Below, piece after piece: positions 3,428 through 15,394 of a DNA stretch of 45,540 bases. Below the pieces are notes generated by a model that was given only the letters and a program-made list of their open reading frames with translations, ran no database searches and was not told the origin of the DNA. The DNA is taken from positions 1 through 45,540 of the forward strand of contig NZ_JACJQB010000028.1 in NCBI RefSeq assembly GCF_014696385.1, in the 5' to 3' direction. How positions within the stretch are numbered: position 1 is the first letter of the stretch; each line of letters starts with the position of its first letter. Position numbers and translations under genes: made by a program. Source of the DNA: Pseudanabaena mucicola FACHB-723 (GTDB lineage: Bacteria > Cyanobacteriota > Cyanobacteriia > Pseudanabaenales > Pseudanabaenaceae).

Positions 3428-3640
3428 AAAGAAGCGAATTTTACAAACTGAGAGTAATTGACCAATTATCCATGTTAGAGATCGATCGTCGCCTGAAGCG
3501 AAACAAAAGTATAATCTCCAGAGAGCTATCGCGGAACACAGAGGGACGACAGGTCGGTTATTTGCCAGACTTCTCAAACACGCTCTCAAGCTCAAGCCAA
3601 ATCGGTTATCGATTTTTTCGTCAAGCTTTAATTGATCCTT
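3428..3640 (+). pseudogene. IS30-family transposase remnant (N-terminal HTH, frameshifted)
   Basis: The frame reads '...LEIDRRLKRNKSIISREL' then 'SRNTEGRQVGYLPD', which matches the N-terminal helix-turn-helix of IS30-type transposases (pattern 'I...L.R..STISRELxRN....YxPxxA'). After 'LPDF' the IS30-like continuation 'RSQAQAKSV' is found in another frame starting about position 3582, so a frameshift separates them. The shifted frame then stops at 3636-3638. No DDE catalytic core follows, and no terminal repeats were recognised. It is a dead fragment of roughly 60-70 codons. Confidence 0.7.
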
Positions 3641-3676
3641 CTTCCATTTCTCTCATCCCCATTCTTACCTGAATAC

Positions 3677-4894
3677 TTACCCCAAATCATCAAACAGACT
3701 TAATAAATTAGTGTTGAACTTCTCTCTAGAAGTAAGCAACCTAAAATCTTCAAACTTAGGCTGACCAACCTTTGAGAGGAATTTTTCTTTGTTTAGGATT
3801 GTTTCTAAACATTCGATTTGCTGTTCTATATTTTGGTTGCTTGCACTTAATCCTAAATTAAATTCTTTGACTAGAGTTTCCATCAAATAACCATGAGCGA
3901 CCAATACTGGCTTGTTAAAGAAAGCCGCTTTAGTCATGATATTGCTACTGCTTGCAAAGCACTCATAAACCAAATACAAAATATCACATTGGCTAACTAA
4001 AGAGTTAAAGTTAGCTTCAATAGGAATTCTTTCAAAGAAGAAAAATAAATTTTCAGGATCAGAATCGCAAAACTCTGTGATCATACCTAGTTCATCTGGG
4101 GAAAATGAATTTCTATCAAGAATTCCTGCTAACAAGAAAAAATATGGATAGTTTGACAGCTTTTTAACAATTTCAATAAAAGGTAACACTCCCTTTCGCT
4201 TGTGTAAAGCACCTAATAAACCAATAATCGGTCTACCATTTGCCTTTTCTTTAATTTGTTGTGCCACTGGATAGATACTACTGGGGAGAGATACATCAGC
4301 GGTATCAGGGAGGATCACAATTCTTTTATTTAAAAACCTCAGCTTCTCGGCACTTTTTTCGTTCAGGACAGAAAAGGACTGGCATTTTTTTGAATCAAGT
4401 ATTTTGTACATATTTGGATTGACAAGCTTATCCTCAGATCCTGTATGAAAGACTATGCCAAGCCACTTATATGGAAATACAAAATTGATAGCATCGTAAA
4501 GAAGCCTGCACTTAAATGATGCACTACTAGTAGGGTAAGCGAAATATATGTAATCATCAAAGTAGTTGAAAAAGACAAAATCGGGATCAAAGTTGTACTT
4601 TTTACTAGCTTTTTTGATTCTTTTTAAAGCTTCATACCATCTGTAAAGAACGAGTAAAAGAGTACTCTTTTTAATTTTTTTTATAGGAGACAGTTGCACA
4701 TCAATCAATGTTTCAACTATGAGATTGCCAGCTTTTTCGGGAATACTTAATCGGATGCTTTCATACATCTCATTTGGATTGGGGCATAGCACTACTACTT
4801 GATAGTTTGATTGTAGAAAAGCTTGCGTTACAAAGTTGGCATAGGTCGGATGATGTCCTGTCCATCTAATATCTATAACTACTACTGTTTGCAT
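3677..4894 (-). CDS. Glycosyltransferase family 4-like protein
   Basis: I prefer the ATG at 4894 (405 aa, starting 'MQTVVVIDIRWTGHHPTYAN'), because GT-B enzymes begin with such a beta-strand plus glycine-rich turn. The longer frame back to 5029 would be read through a 32-bp perfect palindrome and adds a non-conserved leader. Features of the GT4 fold are an N-terminal Rossmann-like half with 'HHPTYANFVTQAFLQ' and a C-terminal half with 'RPIIGLLGALHKRKGVLPFIEIV' (sugar-nucleotide binding loop) and 'FNKPVLVAHGYLMETLVKEFNLGLSA' (donor-site region). The usual EX7E is not clean. The acceptor is unknown; exopolysaccharide or surface-protein glycosylation would fit the neighbouring surface cluster. 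Its base composition is more AT-rich than its neighbours, as is common for transferred glycan genes. Confidence 0.8.
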   Translation of the reverse strand: MQTVVVIDIRWTGHHPTYANFVTQAFLQSNYQVVVLCPNPNEMYESIRLSIPEKAGNLIVETLIDVQLSPIKKIKKSTLLLVLYRWYEALKRIKKASKKYNFDPDFVFFNYFDDYIYFAYPTSSASFKCRLLYDAINFVFPYKWLGIVFHTGSEDKLVNPNMYKILDSKKCQSFSVLNEKSAEKLRFLNKRIVILPDTADVSLPSSIYPVAQQIKEKANGRPIIGLLGALHKRKGVLPFIEIVKKLSNYPYFFLLAGILDRNSFSPDELGMITEFCDSDPENLFFFFERIPIEANFNSLVSQCDILYLVYECFASSSNIMTKAAFFNKPVLVAHGYLMETLVKEFNLGLSASNQNIEQQIECLETILNKEKFLSKVGQPKFEDFRLLTSREKFNTNLLSLFDDLG

Positions 4895-4937
4895 ATTCCA
4901 CAAAGGTAGATTTGATACGAAGCATCTAAATCGTAAC

Positions 4938-4969
4938 ATACAGCAAATTCCGATCGGAATTTGCTGTAT
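4938..4969. repeat. 32-bp perfect palindrome
   Basis: The sequence around the centre GATC (ACAGCAAATTCC / GGAATTTGCTGT plus flanking AT) is self-complementary without a loop. It lies 44 bp upstream of the preferred glycosyltransferase start. It may be a terminator-like or regulatory hairpin, or an interspersed repeat. It lacks a clear T-run. Confidence 0.7.
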
Positions 4970-5047
4970 AAGGAGTGGGAAGATTTGCTTGGTGGCGATT
5001 TTGGTAAAGAGATTGGCATTATTTAGCAATGCAAACTATCTAAAATT

Positions 5048-5080
5048 AAAAAAGTGGGGCGCATTGCGCCCCGCTTTTTT
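5048..5080. terminator. Bidirectional intrinsic terminator
   Basis: A GC-rich stem (GTGGGGCGC / GCGCCCCGC, loop ATT) is extended by an A-run on the left and a T-run on the right. It therefore fits a rho-independent terminator in both directions. It closes the DUF11 remnant on the minus strand. Confidence 0.8.
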
Positions 5081-5082
5081 GT

Positions 5083-5225
5083 TTAATTTACTCTGACCCT
5101 AAATCTGATAAATCCGTAAGAGCTAGACGGCAAACCTGCACCTGTAGCACCAAGCACAGATGGAAATGTCGGCGTGCCTGTGGTACGAGTGACATTCACA
5201 GTGACAATGCCATTGCGATCGCAGT
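5083..5225 (-). pseudogene. 3' fragment of a DUF11-type surface protein gene
   Basis: The frame ending at 5083 encodes 'DRNGIVTVNVTRTTGTP...GATGAGLPSSSYGFIRFRVRVN'. This parallels the C-terminus of the intact neighbour ending at 5454 ('TNGLVVVNVVSSSPTL...ATGAGTPTNSYGFVRFQVQVK'). Only the last strands of a DUF11 domain remain; no signal peptide or repeat region precedes them in frame. The upstream DNA belongs to a Ycf33-like gene in another frame, so this is a deletion or recombination remnant of a second copy of the neighbouring gene type. The left boundary is approximate. Confidence 0.75.
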
Positions 5226-5339
5226 AACGGGTCTTTTGAGCAGAGGAATGATCGGCGCAATTACGACCGACAACACTCCGCCTGTAATTAATGCCAAAAA
5301 TTTGGGATAGCGCAGTAAATTTTGGATAAAGTTTTTCAT
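5196..5339 (-). pseudogene. Truncated Ycf33/DUF751-like membrane protein gene
   Basis: From ATG 5339 a 47-residue frame reads 'MKNFIQNLLRYPKFLALITG' and then '...PIIPLLKRPVTAIAMALSL' before TGA. This closely resembles the N-terminal two thirds of the small Ycf33/DUF751 proteins of cyanobacteria and red-algal plastids (conserved 'NxxRYP' and 'PLLKxPVTAIA'). After 'PVTAIA' the similarity stops at a HIP1 octamer (5215-5222). From there the DNA codes, in another frame, for the tail of a DUF11 protein. The family's C-terminal transmembrane part is lost. The longer frame opening at TTG 5346 runs through both halves and is probably not a real protein. Confidence 0.65.
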
Positions 5340-5453
5340 AATTCAAATAATTAAATAAACAAAATGAGAGCTAATGGTTTCGTCCATGTCTTCCTACACA
5401 ACTTTAGCATTGTGAGATTAGCCTAGATTTCTCAAAAGTGATTAATACCCAAG

Positions 5454-8252
5454 TTATTTTACCTGCACTTGAAAGCGCACAAACCCATAGGAATTTGTGG
5501 GTGTTCCTGCACCTGTGGCATGGGGCAAGGTTGTTAGGGTAGGTGAACTAGACACAACATTAACCACGACTAAGCCGTTAGTATTATCAGCAGCAGTCAA
5601 GTCATCACTAGGCACAGAGGGGTTTGCCGCATTTAGTTTACGGCAAGTAGCAGGTGGCAAACTACCTGCGGGATAGAACTGACCGAGATCGCTATCAAAT
5701 GCACTAGTGAAATAGGTAATGGGAAGAGTGGGTGAAGCCTCATTATTAAACGCAATCCCCAAATTACTGCTATTACCCACAGAGTCATAAGCTCCATTCA
5801 CAAAGGTCGTGTTAGCAGGAACTAAATCGCAAATAGTGACATTGGTGATTGCTCTATTACCACTTGCCAAAAAATAAATCGTGTACTCAATGCGATCGCC
5901 GGGTTTTGCCGTGACATTACTGATAGCTCCTCGCAAATAGTCAGTATTTGCTCCTATGTACGTTGCCCAATCAGGATCAGGATCGGCTGTGTAATCTGCG
6001 ATCGGGAGATCATTAACGGCAGTTATTCGCTTGGCTAGTATTAGTTTAAAAATTGGCAATAGCAAAGATCGACCAACTTGGGCTGTAGTCGGATCAATTG
6101 TTCCTGTTTGGACTTGACTAATGTTCCCAGTTGCGGAAGGTGCAGGAATGCCTAATGGCAGAGAGGTATTAGTTGTATCAATGTTATCGGTCTTCACGTC
6201 ACCGACTGGTAAATTAGTACCTGTTGCTGCAGCTTGATTGGACAAAAGTTGATTAGCTGTTGCTGAACCACCAACAATAGTTTTGATTTCAACAGTGATT
6301 GCACCACCTACTTTTAACACAAACCCAGGAGCAAAGAGGTTATCATTACCATTACCTGTGTAGCCAGAATTTATGGTTGGTAAAGTATTCTGTGTACCGA
6401 TACCAGAGACAGTAATAGGATTAGATGGTGCTAAAACTAGATCCCCATCAGCAAAATCTGGGAATTGATCGATGATTTGGAAGTTTGTGATATCAACATT
6501 GCCTGTATTAGCGTAAGTGATTCGCCATGTCAATGTGTCGCCAGTAGATATCACACTGCTATTATCTGGATCGGCAGTGAGGTTTACTGATTTATAACCG
6601 AATACTATGGCTTGATTGATTCCAAAATCTTTACCCGTGATATTTGTACCTGTATTGAAAGGTGCTGTCACTAGAGGGCTAGTAGCAACAAAACCAGGTG
6701 GTAATGAAGCCGCAGGAGCCGCAGCTCCTATAGTCCCAGTACTGGTACTCAAACGAATAGTCACATTATTTTGATTAAAGGGAACATCGTTAAATATATA
6801 TGTCCCATCTGCATTGACTGGTGTAGTCGCTAAAACATTACCAGTACTGCTTACCAAAATTGCATTTAAAAGTCCCCCTGCATTTGTGCCAACTTCAGAG
6901 CCAGTTTGAATATTAGTAAAAGTGCCATTGGCGGAATTATCAACATCATCAAAAACATTGCCACTTAAAAATTCATCATCAAAAACTGTATAGCTTGAAT
7001 TTCCTATTGGTGGTGAACCACAAGTGGTTGTGGAAGAAATAAAGTAATTACCTGAAGAACCAATCTCGAAAATGATACTTTCATCTCCTTCAGTTGTCCC
7101 ATCTTGGATAATCGTAAAAGGGATGAAGAAAGTACTAGTCGCATTCGAGCCATCGTAGTTACCAGCAGGGATCGTCATCGTAAAGTTGTTGGTTCCTGTC
7201 GGTGTATTAAAGTCAGTTCCCAGTACCGCCGTGCTTGCTGCACCAATAGAAATAGGAACGACAATCCCGCCAGCAGGGACTACGCCCACCACACGAATTT
7301 TGGGAGGATTGGAGGTTGGGTTAGTTTCGGCTTCGGCGGCTCCGCCTGAAGACACAGAAAATTCGATTACAGGCAACCCCGCAAATTGGGCATTATCAAT
7401 AAAGTTTCCTATTGTGTTATTACCAGAACCAGTGGCAATAGATTCAAAGCCAATAGGAAAATTTCCTGAGGTACTTGTATACCGAAAGCTACCACTATAC
7501 CTGACCCATCCATTTCCCTGAGGTTGAGGCGGATCTAAGCTAACAATGTTACCGTTTCCAGGTGGTGGTGATGATGCGCTAATGGATGGAGTGCCAAGAG
7601 ATGCGTTATTGGAAGTTGAAAACGCTGCATAGCGATTAGCGATCGCGCTAGCGCTGGTACCAACAGTCAGATTATTCACTTTAAAGACAGCAGTATCGAT
7701 ACCAGTACTATTCCGAGCGCGATGGTCTATCGAGAATTTAACGGTCTCGTTATTGAACAAGCAAAGATTTTGATAGAGTTGGGAACTCTGCTCAGCGTTA
7801 AGCTCCGCAAAAACTTGATTAGCCTGTCCAGAAATTACAGGGGGAGGGGCAGGAACGCTGTTAAAGTTGTTGTTCCACAATTCAATCAAGGGAGTTAACC
7901 CAGGTGAGATAAAATCCGCGCAGTTCCCACCCCCTGAACGAACATTAGTATGGGTTGTTTCCCAACTAGGAACAGACTGAGGGTGTACTTGGATAAAACA
8001 CCCTACAGCACCATTATTGCGAAGCCTGTTAATAATGCTGGTGAATCCTGGGGATAAAGAGTTAAGGGGACTAGGGGGATTATAAAATGTGTTACCAGGA
8101 GGATTTTGTACTAAGTCTTGTTCAAAACTGGGATTGAGGAACGATCGCTGAATAAATTGGGCTTGTGCGGTTTGAGGGCAAAGGGAGGCTATTACAGACA
8201 AGCCTAGAATTACTCCTCCTATTTTGCTAACAACTTTTTTCGAATTTTTCAT
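5454..8252 (-). CDS. Exported Calx-beta / SdrD-B / DUF11 surface protein
   Basis: This is a 932-residue protein with a signal peptide (about 1-32, ending TAQAQ) and no later membrane span. Order of modules: an N-terminal region (35-290) with two cysteines in 'VGCFIQV...GGNCADF'; a Calx-beta-like domain at about 295-405 ('IPFTIIQDGTTEGDESIIFEI'); an SdrD-B-like domain at about 430-545 ('LSGNVFDDVDNSANG...ADGTYIFNDVPF'); a DUF11 domain at about 550-685 ('GDTLTWRITYANTGNVDITNFQIIDQFP'); and a second DUF11 domain at about 765-932 ('PGDRIEYTIYFLASGNRAITNVTICDLVP'). Such stacked beta-sandwich modules form stalks or fibres on cell surfaces. It is the last gene of the tight minus-strand series, 39 bp after the beta-helix/OmpA gene. 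The chain ends on the final DUF11 strand 'FVRFQVQVK'. Confidence 0.85.
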   Translation of the reverse strand: MKNSKKVVSKIGGVILGLSVIASLCPQTAQAQFIQRSFLNPSFEQDLVQNPPGNTFYNPPSPLNSLSPGFTSIINRLRNNGAVGCFIQVHPQSVPSWETTHTNVRSGGGNCADFISPGLTPLIELWNNNFNSVPAPPPVISGQANQVFAELNAEQSSQLYQNLCLFNNETVKFSIDHRARNSTGIDTAVFKVNNLTVGTSASAIANRYAAFSTSNNASLGTPSISASSPPPGNGNIVSLDPPQPQGNGWVRYSGSFRYTSTSGNFPIGFESIATGSGNNTIGNFIDNAQFAGLPVIEFSVSSGGAAEAETNPTSNPPKIRVVGVVPAGGIVVPISIGAASTAVLGTDFNTPTGTNNFTMTIPAGNYDGSNATSTFFIPFTIIQDGTTEGDESIIFEIGSSGNYFISSTTTCGSPPIGNSSYTVFDDEFLSGNVFDDVDNSANGTFTNIQTGSEVGTNAGGLLNAILVSSTGNVLATTPVNADGTYIFNDVPFNQNNVTIRLSTSTGTIGAAAPAASLPPGFVATSPLVTAPFNTGTNITGKDFGINQAIVFGYKSVNLTADPDNSSVISTGDTLTWRITYANTGNVDITNFQIIDQFPDFADGDLVLAPSNPITVSGIGTQNTLPTINSGYTGNGNDNLFAPGFVLKVGGAITVEIKTIVGGSATANQLLSNQAAATGTNLPVGDVKTDNIDTTNTSLPLGIPAPSATGNISQVQTGTIDPTTAQVGRSLLLPIFKLILAKRITAVNDLPIADYTADPDPDWATYIGANTDYLRGAISNVTAKPGDRIEYTIYFLASGNRAITNVTICDLVPANTTFVNGAYDSVGNSSNLGIAFNNEASPTLPITYFTSAFDSDLGQFYPAGSLPPATCRKLNAANPSVPSDDLTAADNTNGLVVVNVVSSSPTLTTLPHATGAGTPTNSYGFVRFQVQVK

Positions 8253-8291
8253 TTCTCAATCCATTTTTAGTGCGTAAAATTGCTTTTAGTA

Positions 8292-10334
8292 TTAGTTCTC
8301 AAGCTGCAAATCAGTTTTTTGATTTTCAAACTTAATCTCAACATCACGAACATCAGTAAATTCAATCTCGACGCGCCGATCGCTAGCATAGTCAATAATC
8401 CGATCGCCTTGAGCAGACCGTTGAGTTTCCCCAAGCGATAGCACCGTCATGCGTTCTGAAGGAACTCCCTGTCGCATCAGATAATTCCGCACAGAAAGCG
8501 ATCGCCTAAAGCCGAGTTCGCGGTTATATTCATCACTGGCTCTAGGATCGGTATGTCCAACGAGGTTAATCATAATGGTGGAATATTGCTTTAATACATC
8601 CGCAACCCGATCCAAAACTTTAGCGCTGTTGACACTAATATCATCGCGATCGAGGGCAAAGTGAACCTGACGCGGCACAGATAAAATAATCGGCACAGGC
8701 GGATCTGGTGGAACTTGGACAACTTGGGGCGGCGTAGTACAGGCTGGTGCTGGAATTGGTGAGTTTACATTTGTCGGTACGGACAAATCAGCATTAACGA
8801 TCCTTGCATTTAGGGCAGGCTCAGAAGTCCCGTATTGCGGATCAGTAGCGATCGCGCTGATAGTGTCGCCAACTTGGAGATTAGTTAGAGTCGCGCCAAA
8901 TTTGCCATTAGCATTGGTTTTTACGGTGGTCAGATATTCACTCAGAGAGCCATAGGGCAGATTATCATCAACCTTACCCTTGACTCGATAGAGATCGATT
9001 TCCGTGTCAGGATCGGCGATGCCATCGATATTTACTTGGTTGGGGGTAAACATTGGGAAATCGCTAGCCAGAAAGGTCGGTGCATCGATTGCGCCATTGG
9101 CAGTATCCACCCGTCTGAAATAAGAATCGCGTTTGGTATTGATGCCATCACCCGTAACAAAATCGCGATCGGCAACATGGTTTTGACTAATCAAATCAAT
9201 GCTCAAACCACTGAGCGCTGTAAAAGTGTTTTTGCGAATCAAGTTGCGATCGCTTTTAGGAAAAGCGGCGATCGCCACACCCGCACCGCGTTGATGGGTG
9301 ATTTGATTATTAGTCACTTGATGATCATTGCCCATCAAATAGATGGCGGCATAATTGGTACTGCGAGAGTTGCCAATTATGCGATTGTCTTCAATGCGTA
9401 TTGCTCCATTCGGTTTAAACAGATAAATACCACTGCCATCATTGGCACAAATTGTATTGCCCTGAATTTTTAAATTAGCAATCTCTCCCTCCAGATAAAT
9501 ACCATGGGGCATACCATTAAACCCGTTGCTAGTAATCGCATTGCCGATAATTTGTGTGCCTGTTGCCCTAACAGATGTAATGATGCCACTACCTCCATGA
9601 TTGGCAATCCGATTGCTGCGGATCAGAGCATCGGTACTATTGAATAAATAAACACCAAAACCAGAATTTTGTTGGGGTATTGCCCCTGTGGGTGTGATAC
9701 CGAGCCAATTGGTTTCGAGGACTACCCCTTGGGGGGGACGACCAGAGACTGGTTGGGAAATAAAGATATCTGCGGATGGTGGGGAAGGAGGGAGATTGCC
9801 ATTGTTATTAAAACCATAAAGACTCAGCCCCTTGATCGTCACGCCATCAGCAACAATCGTGAAGCCGTGCCAAATTTCTACTCCATCGGCAGGGGCGATC
9901 GCCACAATTGGCTGGGGAATCGCTAATTCTTGGGCAAAGGATGCTTGGGAGTCATATCCCGTTTGGGTTGTGCCATCAATGCTCAGATTAGGAATATTGA
10001 GATCAGGTAAGGCTTGTTTTAATTTGATTGTGGTGCGATCGCTTGGCAAATTAAACCGAATTTGCGAACCTTGACTATTATTGGTATCTATCTGCACTTG
10101 AGAGCGTTCTAGATCGCTAAGTTGACTAAGAGGAATTGTGCCATTGACAATGGCGATCGCCTCCCGCAATGTCAATTCGCGATCGGACTGAATGTCATCA
10201 CCATCGCTGTTGACAGTAATTTGATAATTTTTCTCTTGGGCAACTGCTGGATTTGACCAAGCCTCAATCGTCAGACTACTCAAGCCAATCATGCTGATCA
10301 TCAGAATTAATTTATAGCTAGTTACTTTTCTCAT
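8292..10334 (-). CDS. CSLREA/right-handed beta-helix protein with C-terminal OmpA domain
   Basis: This is a 680-residue exported protein (signal peptide about 1-33, ending AVAQE). A CSLREA-like start ('TVNSDGDDIQSDRELTLREAI') leads into a parallel beta-helix of short repeats ('IRSNRIANHGGSGI', 'IQGNTICANDGSGIYLF', 'VTNNQITHQRGAGVAI') over about 100-400. A beta-sandwich region and a proline-rich linker follow (about 525-550). The OmpA/MotB domain at about 557-660 keeps the peptidoglycan-binding pair: Asp596 in 'GHTDPRASDEYN' and Arg611 in 'LGFRRSLSV', plus the 'SDRRVEIEF' ending. It should therefore bind the cell wall while the helix faces the outer membrane or exterior. It starts 5 bp after the barrel gene's stop, so it is almost certainly co-translated with it. 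Confidence 0.88.
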   Translation of the reverse strand: MRKVTSYKLILMISMIGLSSLTIEAWSNPAVAQEKNYQITVNSDGDDIQSDRELTLREAIAIVNGTIPLSQLSDLERSQVQIDTNNSQGSQIRFNLPSDRTTIKLKQALPDLNIPNLSIDGTTQTGYDSQASFAQELAIPQPIVAIAPADGVEIWHGFTIVADGVTIKGLSLYGFNNNGNLPPSPPSADIFISQPVSGRPPQGVVLETNWLGITPTGAIPQQNSGFGVYLFNSTDALIRSNRIANHGGSGIITSVRATGTQIIGNAITSNGFNGMPHGIYLEGEIANLKIQGNTICANDGSGIYLFKPNGAIRIEDNRIIGNSRSTNYAAIYLMGNDHQVTNNQITHQRGAGVAIAAFPKSDRNLIRKNTFTALSGLSIDLISQNHVADRDFVTGDGINTKRDSYFRRVDTANGAIDAPTFLASDFPMFTPNQVNIDGIADPDTEIDLYRVKGKVDDNLPYGSLSEYLTTVKTNANGKFGATLTNLQVGDTISAIATDPQYGTSEPALNARIVNADLSVPTNVNSPIPAPACTTPPQVVQVPPDPPVPIILSVPRQVHFALDRDDISVNSAKVLDRVADVLKQYSTIMINLVGHTDPRASDEYNRELGFRRSLSVRNYLMRQGVPSERMTVLSLGETQRSAQGDRIIDYASDRRVEIEFTDVRDVEIKFENQKTDLQLEN

Positions 10335-10339
10335 ATTCG

Positions 10340-13300
10340 TTAATTCTTGAGATTAGGAAGTTGATCGGCAGGGATGGCGAAACCAGTTTTGGCGACATCG
10401 TTCATCTCTAGGGCGCGGATGAAGGCGGTGACCACATCGCCATTACCCGTGAGTAAGAAGTTAAATGCTGTTGCTAGACGACGGTCAGCCGTAGTTGCTG
10501 TAGCCGTTGTCACAGGTACGTCATCCTGAGTGGCAATGATGTTGTCAGGATTGATGATCGCCGCTAAGAATAACTCGGTTGGTATTTGGGTAAGCAGTTG
10601 ATTTAAACCAAGCTCAGAGAAACTTAGAGTCTCACTAAACTGCAAGGTTAATTGGTCGTTCGATGGCAAATTAGGTAAGGTACTTTCGAGCCAGTTGCCT
10701 AGTCCATTCAACCTGCTAGAGAGACGACGACCGCCGTTAAGATCGTCTTGCATCAAGAGTGCCAAGGGTGTATTGACGGTATTGGCGTTTGCCATTGGCA
10801 CGGGTGTAGTTCTGGCATCAGCTTGGGTGGCTGGGACTGTTGGTGTGGTGGCGATGGTGTTGGTGCTGTCGTCATCGCTAAGGGATATATAAACTGGAGA
10901 GTTGTTTACGTCTGTTGGGTTGATATTGGTATTGGTATTGGTGCTTAACAAAATGCGATCGGAGTTAATGCCTTTATCTAATAGATAGGTTCTGACTGCT
11001 AGCAGTTTAAACATTTCTAAGTTGTTTGCGTTACTAGATACTGAGCTGGTTTGCAGTTCAATAGTGGCATTAGGGTTAGTCTTGAGACGCTCAATGAGAC
11101 GATCAATGCTGGCATAGCTCAAGTCAGCAATTTGTCCATTTTTATCGACATTGATGCCCAGAGAAATGTTAGTAGATTTATTGATCGCAGGGTTGATCGG
11201 TGCATTTGTGGCATTGGCTTGAAGATTGGATGTGCTGTCAGGCAAGATGCTTTGCAAGAACTCAGCCGCAGGTGAGTTAATAGTGCTTGCTTGCAAACGA
11301 TTTGCGATCGCATTAAAGACATCGGCTTTACCATTGAGGGCAAAGCTAACCAGTGACAGATTAGCAGGCTCGGCACTAGCAGCGACACCACCTAAAGATC
11401 GCAAGGTCATTTGACTACCCGTCACCCCACGATCGAGCAGGTACTTTCTCGCAGCGATCATCCGATTGGCGGCTAGGTTATCCCCTGAGTTCATATCGGC
11501 AAGGGAACCCATGTAGCCTTGGATATCAATGGAGATATTTTTATATTCCTTCAGTACCGAGGCTAAATTTTCGAGAACAGCGATGTCGGCAACGCTCAGA
11601 TCGGTACTATTGGGATTACTTTGGCTGTTTTTAAAGGTAAGCGATCGCGATACATTGAGGCTAATGCTCTGCGGCAAATTAGGAATCGCTGCCGTCGCCA
11701 CTTTTTGAGCTGGTGGTGCAACTTGGGCAACAGGGGTTTGTGGATCGATTGGTTCTTGTTGCTGACGTGGAGGCATTTTTTGCAAGCCAAAACCATCAAA
11801 TAATTCGTTCAGCTTGACGGTCAAACCTGCATATAAACCACCCGCAGAACGAGTACCGCTAAAATCACGATCGGCATTGATCGAGCCAGAGCTATAACCA
11901 ACAGCTAAACGTAAATTAGGGGTGAGATAATAGCCAACTTCGCCGACTAAACCCAATTCGCTATAGCCCGCAGTCGGTTGCGCCAAAAATCGACCTTCTC
12001 CCACCAGTTCGAGGTTGTAGTTGAGGCGATAGCTTACGCGAAACTGAGTCAGATTAGTGATGGAGTTGGCAATAAAGTCTTGCGCGACTTGGGTGGTGCT
12101 ATTGCGGAGAGCCAACTTGCCATAAAATTCCCATTGCCAATCGGGGGCATAGATGGCTTCGATCGCAAAAGTATGGTCATTGTAGCCATTGCCTGCGCCA
12201 CTAATTAATGACTCAGGGACAATACTAGGATTTTGGCGATATTCATAGCGCATCAGCACATTTAATCGGTCATCGTTAGGATCGCGATAGGCGAGTCCCA
12301 CCTTGAGGCTAGAGATTGTACCTAAGCCTGCGAGGGCTTGGTTGGCGGCGCTTGATTGCTGATAGTTAAACAGCATCGTCAAAGCTGGCGAAAGCTTGCC
12401 CAAGGCGGAAGCGTTGAAAACACTATTGCTGCTGGTGTTATCGCTGCGATGCTCAAACCTAGCGCTGGCTTTGAAATCAGGGTTGTCAGTATATTCCAGA
12501 CCAATGTTGTAACTATTGCCATTTTGCAAGGTCAAGGAACTAGAGGACTGCCCCACAGCAACGGGCTGAAGGAACTGTGTACCTGTGGGTGTAGTAGTCG
12601 CAAAACTACCAAAGATATGCTCATAGCCAAAGGCTAAGCGCAAACCCGAAACGATTTGCCAACGTTGATTAAACCCTAAAGCTCCCTGTGTAGAGTTAGT
12701 GTTATCGCCAGTTAAGAAGGAATAACGACCTGTAAAGCTGGTATCCGTGCCGAGCTTATATTCGCCGATCAAATCAGCACTGGTAATCGCCTTACCTGCT
12801 AAGGGGCCAGACTGGAACCATTGCTGTCCCAATCGAGCCGTAACCCCTTGTACAATTGTCCAATCGAGCGTGACAACGGTGCGATCGGGAATAACTGCAT
12901 CAGCACTCGCTGAGATACTGACTTCGTTTTGGGCATTCAGCCGCAAGCTATCAGTAATCGGTACACTCAGTCGCGATCGCAGTTGTGTGGAATTGCTGGT
13001 TAAAAAGTTAGGAGGTTGCCGATCAATGCGATCGCGATATAACAAATCGAGATTCAGGAGCGCCGCACCTAAGTTTTGCTGTAACCCGACGCTGATCGTC
13101 CGTAGGGAATTATCCACGGCTGATCCTGGTACAGCTTCTTGCCTTTGATTGAGTAAATCGGCAAGGGATGTAAGCGGACGAGGCGCAACCCCTAAATTGT
13201 CTTCTTGGTCATACTGTAACTTGACGCTGGTGGTCGAACCTAATTTGGCATTGACCTGTGCGCCATATCTCGTCTGCCCAGGCACAAAACTAGTAGTAGC

Positions 13301-15394
13301 GTTATTCGTAAAGCCTGTTTCGGTTTTGTTGTAATACAGACGAGTAAGAATGCCAGGGGCAACTTCGCTATTCAGGTCAAAGCGGAACGCGGAGCCACTG
13401 ACATATCCTAATAGTTCCGAATCATTTTGCGATCGCGCATATTCAGCAATTAGTTGCGTTTTGTCCCCAAGGGAAATCAGCGCACTCGTACCATAAAGAA
13501 CGAAGTTGCGAACGCCAAGACTCTCTTTAAAGTAATTAGCCGTGAGCCAACTAGGTTGACTTTGACTACGATTGAAGTTGTATCGCAACTGCCCACCATA
13601 GATGGAGCTATCGCCACCGACCTCTTCATTTTGATAGGTGACCACAATCTGGCGACGCAACAGATTACCTCGCTCATCTAAGTCTGTTTGTAACAGAGGT
13701 TGACGAAACAGCAGTGAACCACTGTCATAGTCAATGTCGTAATCTTTGCCCCGTGATAGTTGCTGCCGCGCTATGACTGTGCCAGCACTAAAGAAATCAA
13801 TCAACTCAATAACGACATTTTCACTACCATTAATCAAAAAACGCTTGGAGAGAAAATAAGTACCACTCGTACCATTGGGGGCAATCGTATCACGCTGGAA
13901 ACTCTTACCCACATTGCTATAAAAGCCTGTGATTTGGAGATCGCCAAGATTGAAGTTTCCCTTTAACCCTTGCAGTTGACGAGACAGACCACTATATTGC
14001 TGCGATCGTGAAGTGAACTCCTCAGTATTAAAGTTGCCCCACATCAAATAATCTGTCCCCGCACCCTGTACAGGCGAATTGCGCTCGACCCGTAAATAAA
14101 GGCTATCAAAAGATGGGGTGGTCAGACTCGAAGTAGAACTATCACCAGTTACAGGATATTGTGGGTCACAGTATTTTTCGCCTGTGAATAAGCTGCTATT
14201 GCCTGCACAGTCTTGGCTGAGAGTACGGCTGTTATTAAATGCACCTGTAACCAACCATTCACCCACGCGCCCTGTGCCAAATACAGCACCATAGAGATCG
14301 ACCTGAGTACGATTGTCTCTATCAACGGGTAAAAACTCCCGCAAACTCCGATAGAAGTCTGTACCTCTCGCACCAACCCGTAGATCGATTACGCCTGTAA
14401 CAAGAGAAGGGCGCAAATCCGTTTCAAATTGTACCTGTGTAAAGGCTTCCATTTGCGATGTGACAGCGCGAATAGTCACTGAGCCTGTACTGAGTCCAGA
14501 CTTGAGCTGTGCTGTGAACTTGCCCTGCTTGGCTTGGACTTGAAAGCCTGGTTGTTCAGGCGAGAAATCCGTACCAATAAATTCTCCATTGTTAGTTTCT
14601 AAGGTAACGACCGCATCCCAATTAGAGCGATTGTTATTTTCATCAACTAGCTGACCATCAACGGTGGCAAAAGAGCGTCCGTCGGCAGGAATTCGCGATT
14701 CCAAGGTTTTGATCACCAATTTCACAGGTGTACCTCTGACCTTAAGATTGACAGAGGCATCGAGAATACTACTATCCCCACCAATCGCCTTGGCAGAAAC
14801 GGTATTATTACCCGCCTGTAAAGGCACACCGTACCAAGTCTGGGTGACAGTTTGATTAGCCTCATCTACTTCCAAGCGCCCAATCGAGCTAGCATCAACG
14901 GCTTTTCCATTGACCAACAATTCCACCTTAGTCTTGAGCGGCATCTGAATCACCACGGTTGCCGCAGGCACATCAAGAACGGTGTCGATCGTGGGTGAGA
15001 GAATGACTATACTCTGTTTGGTTGTCGCCTGTGCAGTCGGGGAGGTGATTGTATTTTTATCTAGATTTGGATTGGTTTCGGGAACTGGGCTTGGGTTAAT
15101 CGCAGGTGAGATCGCAGGTTTAGCGATTTCTTTGTCTGTTGTTTTATCTATAGATGAAACAACAGTATTTTCAGGGAATTGAGGATTATTGACGATTGGC
15201 GGAGTATCGTTTGACTGTGATGCATTTCTGTCCTGATTAATCAGACTTTCAGGGGAATTAAGCTCTACATAGCCTTGCTGATCCTTGCTCAGTCCAGTGG
15301 TATTGGCATGGGCAGCTGTAGTCATCAGCATCAGCAAAATTTGGGGGATTACCAAACTCGCTATTCTAGGAAACGACTTTAATTTACGTTTCAT
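10340..15394 (-). CDS. Giant outer-membrane beta-barrel with Ig/Big-1 front and OmpA-like tail
   Basis: This 1,684-residue protein has a signal peptide (about 1-30), a low-complexity Asn/Pro/Thr linker, an Ig-like domain at about 130-220 ('KVELLVNGKAVD'), and a Big-1/invasin-like domain at about 225-325 ('ESRIPADGRSFATVDGQLVDENN'). A long stretch of alternating amphipathic strands (about 335-1200) fits a large barrel; it contains the 'RGKDYDIDYDSGSLLF' plug-like motif seen in some big outer-membrane proteins. After a proline-rich linker come two degenerate OmpA-like modules, around 1240-1350 ('ISIDIQGYMGSLADMNSGDN') and 1400-1480. The only obvious cysteines form a close pair in an early loop ('QDCAGNSSLFTGEKYCD'). 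The start overlaps the preceding gene by ATGA (4 bp). I infer a secretion or anchoring pore for the DUF11 proteins; a TonB box or usher signature was not found. Confidence 0.82.
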   Translation of the reverse strand: MKRKLKSFPRIASLVIPQILLMLMTTAAHANTTGLSKDQQGYVELNSPESLINQDRNASQSNDTPPIVNNPQFPENTVVSSIDKTTDKEIAKPAISPAINPSPVPETNPNLDKNTITSPTAQATTKQSIVILSPTIDTVLDVPAATVVIQMPLKTKVELLVNGKAVDASSIGRLEVDEANQTVTQTWYGVPLQAGNNTVSAKAIGGDSSILDASVNLKVRGTPVKLVIKTLESRIPADGRSFATVDGQLVDENNNRSNWDAVVTLETNNGEFIGTDFSPEQPGFQVQAKQGKFTAQLKSGLSTGSVTIRAVTSQMEAFTQVQFETDLRPSLVTGVIDLRVGARGTDFYRSLREFLPVDRDNRTQVDLYGAVFGTGRVGEWLVTGAFNNSRTLSQDCAGNSSLFTGEKYCDPQYPVTGDSSTSSLTTPSFDSLYLRVERNSPVQGAGTDYLMWGNFNTEEFTSRSQQYSGLSRQLQGLKGNFNLGDLQITGFYSNVGKSFQRDTIAPNGTSGTYFLSKRFLINGSENVVIELIDFFSAGTVIARQQLSRGKDYDIDYDSGSLLFRQPLLQTDLDERGNLLRRQIVVTYQNEEVGGDSSIYGGQLRYNFNRSQSQPSWLTANYFKESLGVRNFVLYGTSALISLGDKTQLIAEYARSQNDSELLGYVSGSAFRFDLNSEVAPGILTRLYYNKTETGFTNNATTSFVPGQTRYGAQVNAKLGSTTSVKLQYDQEDNLGVAPRPLTSLADLLNQRQEAVPGSAVDNSLRTISVGLQQNLGAALLNLDLLYRDRIDRQPPNFLTSNSTQLRSRLSVPITDSLRLNAQNEVSISASADAVIPDRTVVTLDWTIVQGVTARLGQQWFQSGPLAGKAITSADLIGEYKLGTDTSFTGRYSFLTGDNTNSTQGALGFNQRWQIVSGLRLAFGYEHIFGSFATTTPTGTQFLQPVAVGQSSSSLTLQNGNSYNIGLEYTDNPDFKASARFEHRSDNTSSNSVFNASALGKLSPALTMLFNYQQSSAANQALAGLGTISSLKVGLAYRDPNDDRLNVLMRYEYRQNPSIVPESLISGAGNGYNDHTFAIEAIYAPDWQWEFYGKLALRNSTTQVAQDFIANSITNLTQFRVSYRLNYNLELVGEGRFLAQPTAGYSELGLVGEVGYYLTPNLRLAVGYSSGSINADRDFSGTRSAGGLYAGLTVKLNELFDGFGLQKMPPRQQQEPIDPQTPVAQVAPPAQKVATAAIPNLPQSISLNVSRSLTFKNSQSNPNSTDLSVADIAVLENLASVLKEYKNISIDIQGYMGSLADMNSGDNLAANRMIAARKYLLDRGVTGSQMTLRSLGGVAASAEPANLSLVSFALNGKADVFNAIANRLQASTINSPAAEFLQSILPDSTSNLQANATNAPINPAINKSTNISLGINVDKNGQIADLSYASIDRLIERLKTNPNATIELQTSSVSSNANNLEMFKLLAVRTYLLDKGINSDRILLSTNTNTNINPTDVNNSPVYISLSDDDSTNTIATTPTVPATQADARTTPVPMANANTVNTPLALLMQDDLNGGRRLSSRLNGLGNWLESTLPNLPSNDQLTLQFSETLSFSELGLNQLLTQIPTELFLAAIINPDNIIATQDDVPVTTATATTADRRLATAFNFLLTGNGDVVTAFIRALEMNDVAKTGFAIPADQLPNLKN

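Follow-up and report, generated by a model that had tools for sequence, protein, structure and literature searches.

A chimeric scar of ycf33 and a DUF11-type gene joined beside a HIP1 octamer in Pseudanabaena mucicola FACHB-723

In Pseudanabaena mucicola FACHB-723, the first 42-43 codons of a displaced ycf33 (DUF751) gene run on the minus strand into the last 45 codons of a gene of the DUF11 type, the two being joined beside a HIP1 octamer. The scar is real but is an ordinary rearrangement: the reading as a chimera is correct, whereas a HIP1-to-HIP1 mechanism is unsupported. It is probably a chimeric pseudogene, in which an extra ycf33 with its upstream region would have come to lie between two DUF11-type genes before a comparatively recent illegitimate join. 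A first-pass annotation made from the sequence alone had seen here two overlapping frames, i.e. the start of Ycf33/DUF751 and the C-terminus of a DUF11-type protein, with the switch between them at the octamer; both resemblances hold and the two homologies meet at 5211-5219.

Window and genomes compared

The window, that is the whole stretch of DNA analysed, comprises 45,540 nt of contig NZ_JACJQB010000028.1 (assembly GCF_014696385.1), the genome of P. mucicola FACHB-723 being designated G000. The genus sample consisted of 26 genomes, namely G000 and 25 others, and DUF751 was surveyed in a panel of 58 genomes including G000. From the 26 genus genomes, 22 ycf33 loci were examined; four genomes (G003, G006, G007 and G024) entered no ycf33 comparison, G006 and G007 having no ycf33 match and the loci of G003 and G024 not being included. 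The comparison of copies, the tree and the dating used 17 relatives, G004, G015, G009 and G012 being left out by a motif filter; these four were nonetheless counted in the tally of HIP1 and rbfA at ycf33 and in the test for a DUF11-type match beside ycf33. This test covered 1.6-3.2 kb per ycf33 locus; its counterpart, the search for ycf33 in the DUF11 operon loci, does detect the ycf33 in the scar itself. Regarding the DUF11-type site, 36 loci entered the alignment and tail matches starting after residue 5 were left out; the 28 aligned sites amount to 26 distinct ones, as two duplicate G001 and G007. The OmpA/DUF11 operon was compared between window positions 5454-15394 and the loci L090-L092 and L117-L130, and a gene was taken as tail-type at an identity of at least 73% over at least 34 residues. 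The features of the scar and its surroundings are collected in Table 1.

Table 1. Features of the scar and its immediate surroundings in the window
Feature	Position	Strand	Basis
33-bp block identical to DNA upstream of the ycf33 on contig C56	5395..5427	-	Identity to the C56 copy
Truncated ycf33 (DUF751) frame, 47 codons and TGA, the first 42-43 codons being ycf33	5196..5339	-	Pfam and alignment
HIP1 octamer GCGATCGC, inside codons for T-A-I-A	5215..5222	.	Sequence, with ycf33 and DUF11-type relatives
CAATG overlap that either parent could supply (3-5 bp of junction microhomology)	5211..5215	-	Deduced from relatives
C-terminal tail of the second DUF11-type gene, 45 codons and stop	5083..5220	-	Homology
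Hairpin terminator of the lost DUF11-type gene	5047..5081	-	-21 kcal/mol, z -4.34
3' flank, matching that of the intact DUF11-type gene of G001 (69 bp, 91% identity)	4967..5035	-	
Neighbouring intact gene for the 932-aa DUF11 protein, lying upstream of the scar	5454..8252	-	

The ycf33 half and its intact copy

The truncated ycf33 frame translates as MKNFIQNLLRYPKFLALITGGVLSVVIAPIIPLLKRPVTAIAMALSL before its TGA stop and matches PF05421 (DUF751) in Pfam with 44 bits (E=3.8e-11) for a cut-off of 27, the first 40 residues alone still giving 38.3 bits. The resemblance to Ycf33 thus holds in a profile search above the curated cut-off, the match covering profile positions 1-42 of 60, i.e. less than a full-length domain. 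A search of the whole genome for DUF751 returned two places: the scar itself (42.9 bits, with one internal TGA) and one intact gene on contig C56 (14122-14301) spanning Pfam positions 1-60, which is the complete copy that had been suggested to be sought elsewhere in the genome. Across the 58-genome panel, DUF751 matches occur once in 53 genomes, not at all in three and twice in two, namely G000 and G042; the only second match among the relatives in this panel, that of G042, is weak and below cut-off, and this genome lies outside the family. The three genomes with no DUF751 match are G007 (listed as 99% complete), G006 (82%) and G051 (88%).

In all 22 genus ycf33 loci, the C56 copy of G000 included, rbfA lies nearby (the RbfA label of G000 was confirmed by Pfam), and a DUF11-type match was found beside ycf33 in none of them. 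Hence, the C56 copy occupies the usual position of the gene, whereas the ycf33 piece of the window is ectopic, located as it is away from rbfA, between the DUF11 gene and a possible glycosyltransferase frame (PF00534 at 22.7 bits, under the cut-off of 26.4). Conversely, ycf33 was found in none of the 17 DUF11 operon loci (0/17), and the arrangement anticipated in close relatives by the first-pass annotation, that is an intact ycf33 followed by another DUF11 gene, did not turn up. Compared with the known Ycf33/DUF751 family, the scar shares the first part of the domain as well as upstream DNA in common with the intact copy, but it differs in being truncated, with its last part and stop codon replaced by unrelated DNA, and in its location.

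The scar and the C56 copy are 86% identical over about 217 bp (5427 to 5211), and the DNA they share comprises 88 bp ahead of the start codon, including a run of 33 identical bases. The latter block corresponds to C56:14368-14400 in G000, and the non-coding DNA adjoining it has strongly diverged. With up to three mismatches, its 31-base core is present at these two places only in G000 and is absent from the 25 other genus genomes. The block is possibly a control element of ycf33 maintained by selection and carried along with the copy. A promoter scan of 4880-5480 reported 2 promoter-like sites for 1.5 expected, both on the plus strand and none on the minus strand for the upstream block, and thus a promoter in the 33-bp block gains no support; a search of 3500-9000 for RNA families found none.

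The DUF11-type half and its relatives

The other minus-strand frame is open from 5346 to its stop at 5083 and ends as ...DRNGIVTVNVTRTTGTPTFPSVLGATGAGLPSSSYGFIRFRVRVN. Its last 45 residues resemble the C-terminus of the neighbouring DUF11 protein of 932 residues (54% identity, E=1.2e-8), and in three genus genomes long open frames of the DUF11 type end in DNA 75-79% identical to that of this tail. Pfam assigns the tail alone to no family and the label DUF11 therefore refers to its homology with the neighbouring gene, whose own DUF11 match reaches 24.9 bits for a cut-off of 24.6, and with a gene of G001, which scores 123.6 bits for DUF11 and contains ten DUF7933 stretches. This G001 gene is single and intact, has a product of about 1600 residues in which both DUF11 and DUF7933 domains are found, and follows a gene for an OmpA-like protein; window positions 5219-4967 align at 82% with its end, terminator and 3' flank. 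A hairpin sequence similar to the terminator of the window is also present 3' of the intact G001 gene, and stretches like it are scattered across the genus genomes. The suggestion that a second DUF11 gene once stood here is accordingly supported by the tail, terminator and 3' flank, and the scar thus preserves the tail and the terminator of such a gene. Set against the Pseudanabaena DUF11/DUF7933-type repeat proteins encoded after the OmpA-like gene, with which the tail and its stop align, the remnant differs in keeping at most the last 45 codons, with no start of its own and no DUF11 domain match.

Intact genes of the tail type lie directly after the OmpA-like gene in 6 of the 17 operon loci (G001, G007, G008, G018, G019 and G023), and one tail of the same type is also present in G025. 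The OmpA-like protein of the window operon, which contains OmpA and beta-helix matches in Pfam, is 69-79% identical to its counterpart in 11 of the 17 loci and 48-49% identical in five others (G001, G007, G008, G018 and G019); at the G020 operon locus, no OmpA-like protein was found. The G000 operon thus combines an OmpA-like gene of the first group with a tail mostly seen with the second, and G023 does likewise. Downstream of the OmpA-like gene, the operon varies by species, with one to three DUF11-type genes that differ widely in length.

Regarding the 3' flank, the 91% identity to G001 is found although the PNPase gene of G001 has the lowest identity (78%) of the genus genomes, and a 58-bp piece like this flank is present elsewhere in G019. 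Transfer or a small element is a possible source of this 69-bp similarity. Just beyond the flank, 4938-4969 is a perfect 32-base palindrome, the fold z-score of 4890-5000 being -5.82.

The junction and the HIP1 octamer

In the search of the genus DNA, most ycf33 matches stop at 5211 and those to DUF11-type DNA in G001, G007 and G018 start at 5219, which places the switch between the two homologies at the octamer, where it had been noted. The junction reads GATCGCAATGG in the scar. HIP1 is present at the homologous codons of ycf33 in 20 of 22 genomes; it is missing from G016 and from the C56 copy of G000 itself. The latter (L001) reads GCGATTGC and has no HIP1, whereas the scar retains it. At the matching DUF11-type site, by contrast, HIP1 was found in 0/28 aligned sequences (26 distinct), the closest ones in G001, G007 and G018 included, and the site reads AATCCCAATGG or AATCCCAACGG in G001, G007, G018, G023 and G025. 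From these comparisons, the HIP1 of the scar was most likely inherited from ycf33, the simplest reading being that it stands at the junction because ycf33 carries it there. The direct DUF11-type parent of the G000 lineage is lost, so that its junction site is read through relatives, and this parent could have had a private HIP1.

The CAATG at 5215-5211, which overlaps HIP1 by one base, would provide a microhomology of 3-5 bp, according to which third base the ycf33 alanine codon had. Short-microhomology joining beside a HIP1 already resident in ycf33 is thus a better reading than a deletion between two HIP1 sites. Scars of microhomology-mediated illegitimate recombination join unrelated genes at a few shared bases. 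The scar of the window resembles them in this respect and differs in that its microhomology is deduced from relatives, the parental sequence being lost.

With one HIP1 per 749 bp in G000, a random breakpoint with 5 bp of ambiguity touches an octamer in 1.7% of cases; since the average over 18 ycf33 genes is 0.9 HIP1 per 204 bp, the chance of contact is higher than this inside ycf33. A role of HIP1 in recombination is not established by a single event picked after the fact. The review PMC4390886 mentions some indication of a HIP1 function in site-specific and, far less efficiently, illegitimate recombination, and refers to a lack of evidence linking HIP1 to homologous recombination. Among the titles and abstract openings retrieved on HIP1 recombination, ycf33/DUF751 and microhomology in Pseudanabaena, nothing dealt with this locus. 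In relation to the HIP1-associated recombination described in the works cited in that review (Akiyama 1998; Robinson et al., both in PMC4390886), the scar is similar in that its junction abuts GCGATCGC, but among the relatives of the scar only one of the two parent families possesses the octamer.

Divergence and age of the two ycf33 copies

Over 42 codons, the scar and the C56 copy differ at 12 positions, 11 of them synonymous and one exchanging K and R, which corresponds to a dS of 0.47 and a dN of 0.011 by NG86. In a maximum-likelihood tree of 19 sequences and 126 bases, the two copies group together with a support of 96, the branch of the C56 copy bearing a change of 0.105 vs. 0.004 for the scar copy. 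Column counts of the polarised differences likewise put the clear ones mostly on the C56 copy (6 vs. 1, binomial P 0.125). NG86 is undefined for many comparisons with the relatives, and the sites are few and, at synonymous positions, near saturation; no firm conclusion is therefore drawn as to which copy has changed.

The ratio of 11 synonymous changes to a single amino-acid change indicates that the truncation is probably recent relative to the divergence of the copies. A scar copy unconstrained throughout an equal half of the divergence should have collected about 22 amino-acid changes, where one is seen; by a rough clock argument, this one change limits the unconstrained state to less than about 22% of this period. 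The concentration of nearly all change on the C56 branch, a weak signal, fits neither a long-resident second gene nor an equal-clock dating, and may hint at a later arrival of the scar piece by transfer from a sister lineage or strain.

Origin of the scar

The sequence of events considered probable begins with the arrival of an extra ycf33, with its upstream region, downstream of the intact DUF11 gene and ahead of a second gene of the DUF11 type. An illegitimate join of comparatively recent date would then have deleted the rest of ycf33 and almost the whole second DUF11-type gene, connecting ycf33 codon 42-43 to the last 45 DUF11-type codons via a few shared bases (about CAATG) and falling beside the HIP1 that ycf33 already contained. 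The presumed intermediate, i.e. an intact ycf33 between two DUF11-type genes, is seen in no genome examined. A single event would account for the data nearly as well and is a possible, though distinctly less probable, course: about 217 bp of ycf33 DNA (the upstream region and some 43 codons) would have been copied or ligated as filler where the second DUF11-type gene had broken, no whole second ycf33 ever having resided at this position. The ycf33 homology is short and has an end on either side (5427 to 5211), which agrees with such a filler, as does the lack of a whole ycf33 in the 17 operon loci of relatives; yet the near-exclusively synonymous divergence from the C56 copy is then left unexplained, barring a recent source in the working ycf33 of another strain. 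The mechanism offered in the first-pass annotation, in which ycf33 and the second DUF11-type gene would each have contributed a HIP1 octamer and a deletion between these would have used HIP1 as the recombining homology, now appears unlikely. While the octamer does stand at the join and in nearly all the ycf33 genes examined in the genus, and while the indications cited in the PMC4390886 review concern site-specific and, much less efficiently, illegitimate recombination, relatives of the lost DUF11-type parent uniformly lack HIP1 at the aligned site, a chance contact is expected at 1.7% genome-wide and more often inside ycf33, and the case is one post hoc event. With the octamer in one of the two parent families, the scar provides no demonstration of HIP1 acting as recombination microhomology.

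Whichever the origin, a useful product could be conceived, either a 47-residue shortened Ycf33 or an 87-residue fusion starting from TTG, since the upstream block and the ycf33 start are intact and the protein sequence is nearly unchanged. This is quite improbable: the 47-residue frame is devoid of the last 18 of the 60 DUF751 positions, the 87-residue frame is out of register with that of ycf33 and has no match in Pfam, and a counterpart joining ycf33 to a DUF11-type tail was found neither among the matches in the 25 other genus genomes nor in the 18 loci recovered by searching the genome contigs with the 87-residue frame. In these 18 loci, the matched stretches start at query residue 14 or later, the earliest-starting ones being in L108 (31% identical) and L106 (44%). 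Because of the missing domain positions and the lack of a joined counterpart, no product is expected from the scar. A search of the same loci for ycf33 gave one weak match, in L114 (28.9 bits, 33% identity), considered as a candidate second scar; it lies 475 bases before the tail match, inside one unbroken 1524-residue frame, and was for this reason taken as a chance likeness. As for an artefact of assembly or binning, the assembly is a draft of 94 contigs and the only one seen for the species, but the scar is interior to a 45.5-kb contig, the listed contamination is 0.06%, and the ycf33 half is only 86% identical to the C56 copy and is thus not a misjoined piece of it; such an artefact is highly improbable.

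Concluding remarks

Regarding annotation, 5083-5346 should be recorded as a pseudogene rather than as an 87-residue protein. Beyond this locus, one apparent case of HIP1-to-HIP1 recombination is weakened, and the control for such claims is the presence of the octamer in both parents. It is conceivable, as a speculation with little in its favour, that illegitimate joins in Pseudanabaena preferentially end at HIP1 sites, or at the methylated or cut core of these, also where one partner alone has the octamer. If so, breakpoints would fall at HIP1 more often than the HIP1 density predicts, and such a genome-wide clustering, if true, would bear on the question of the function of HIP1.
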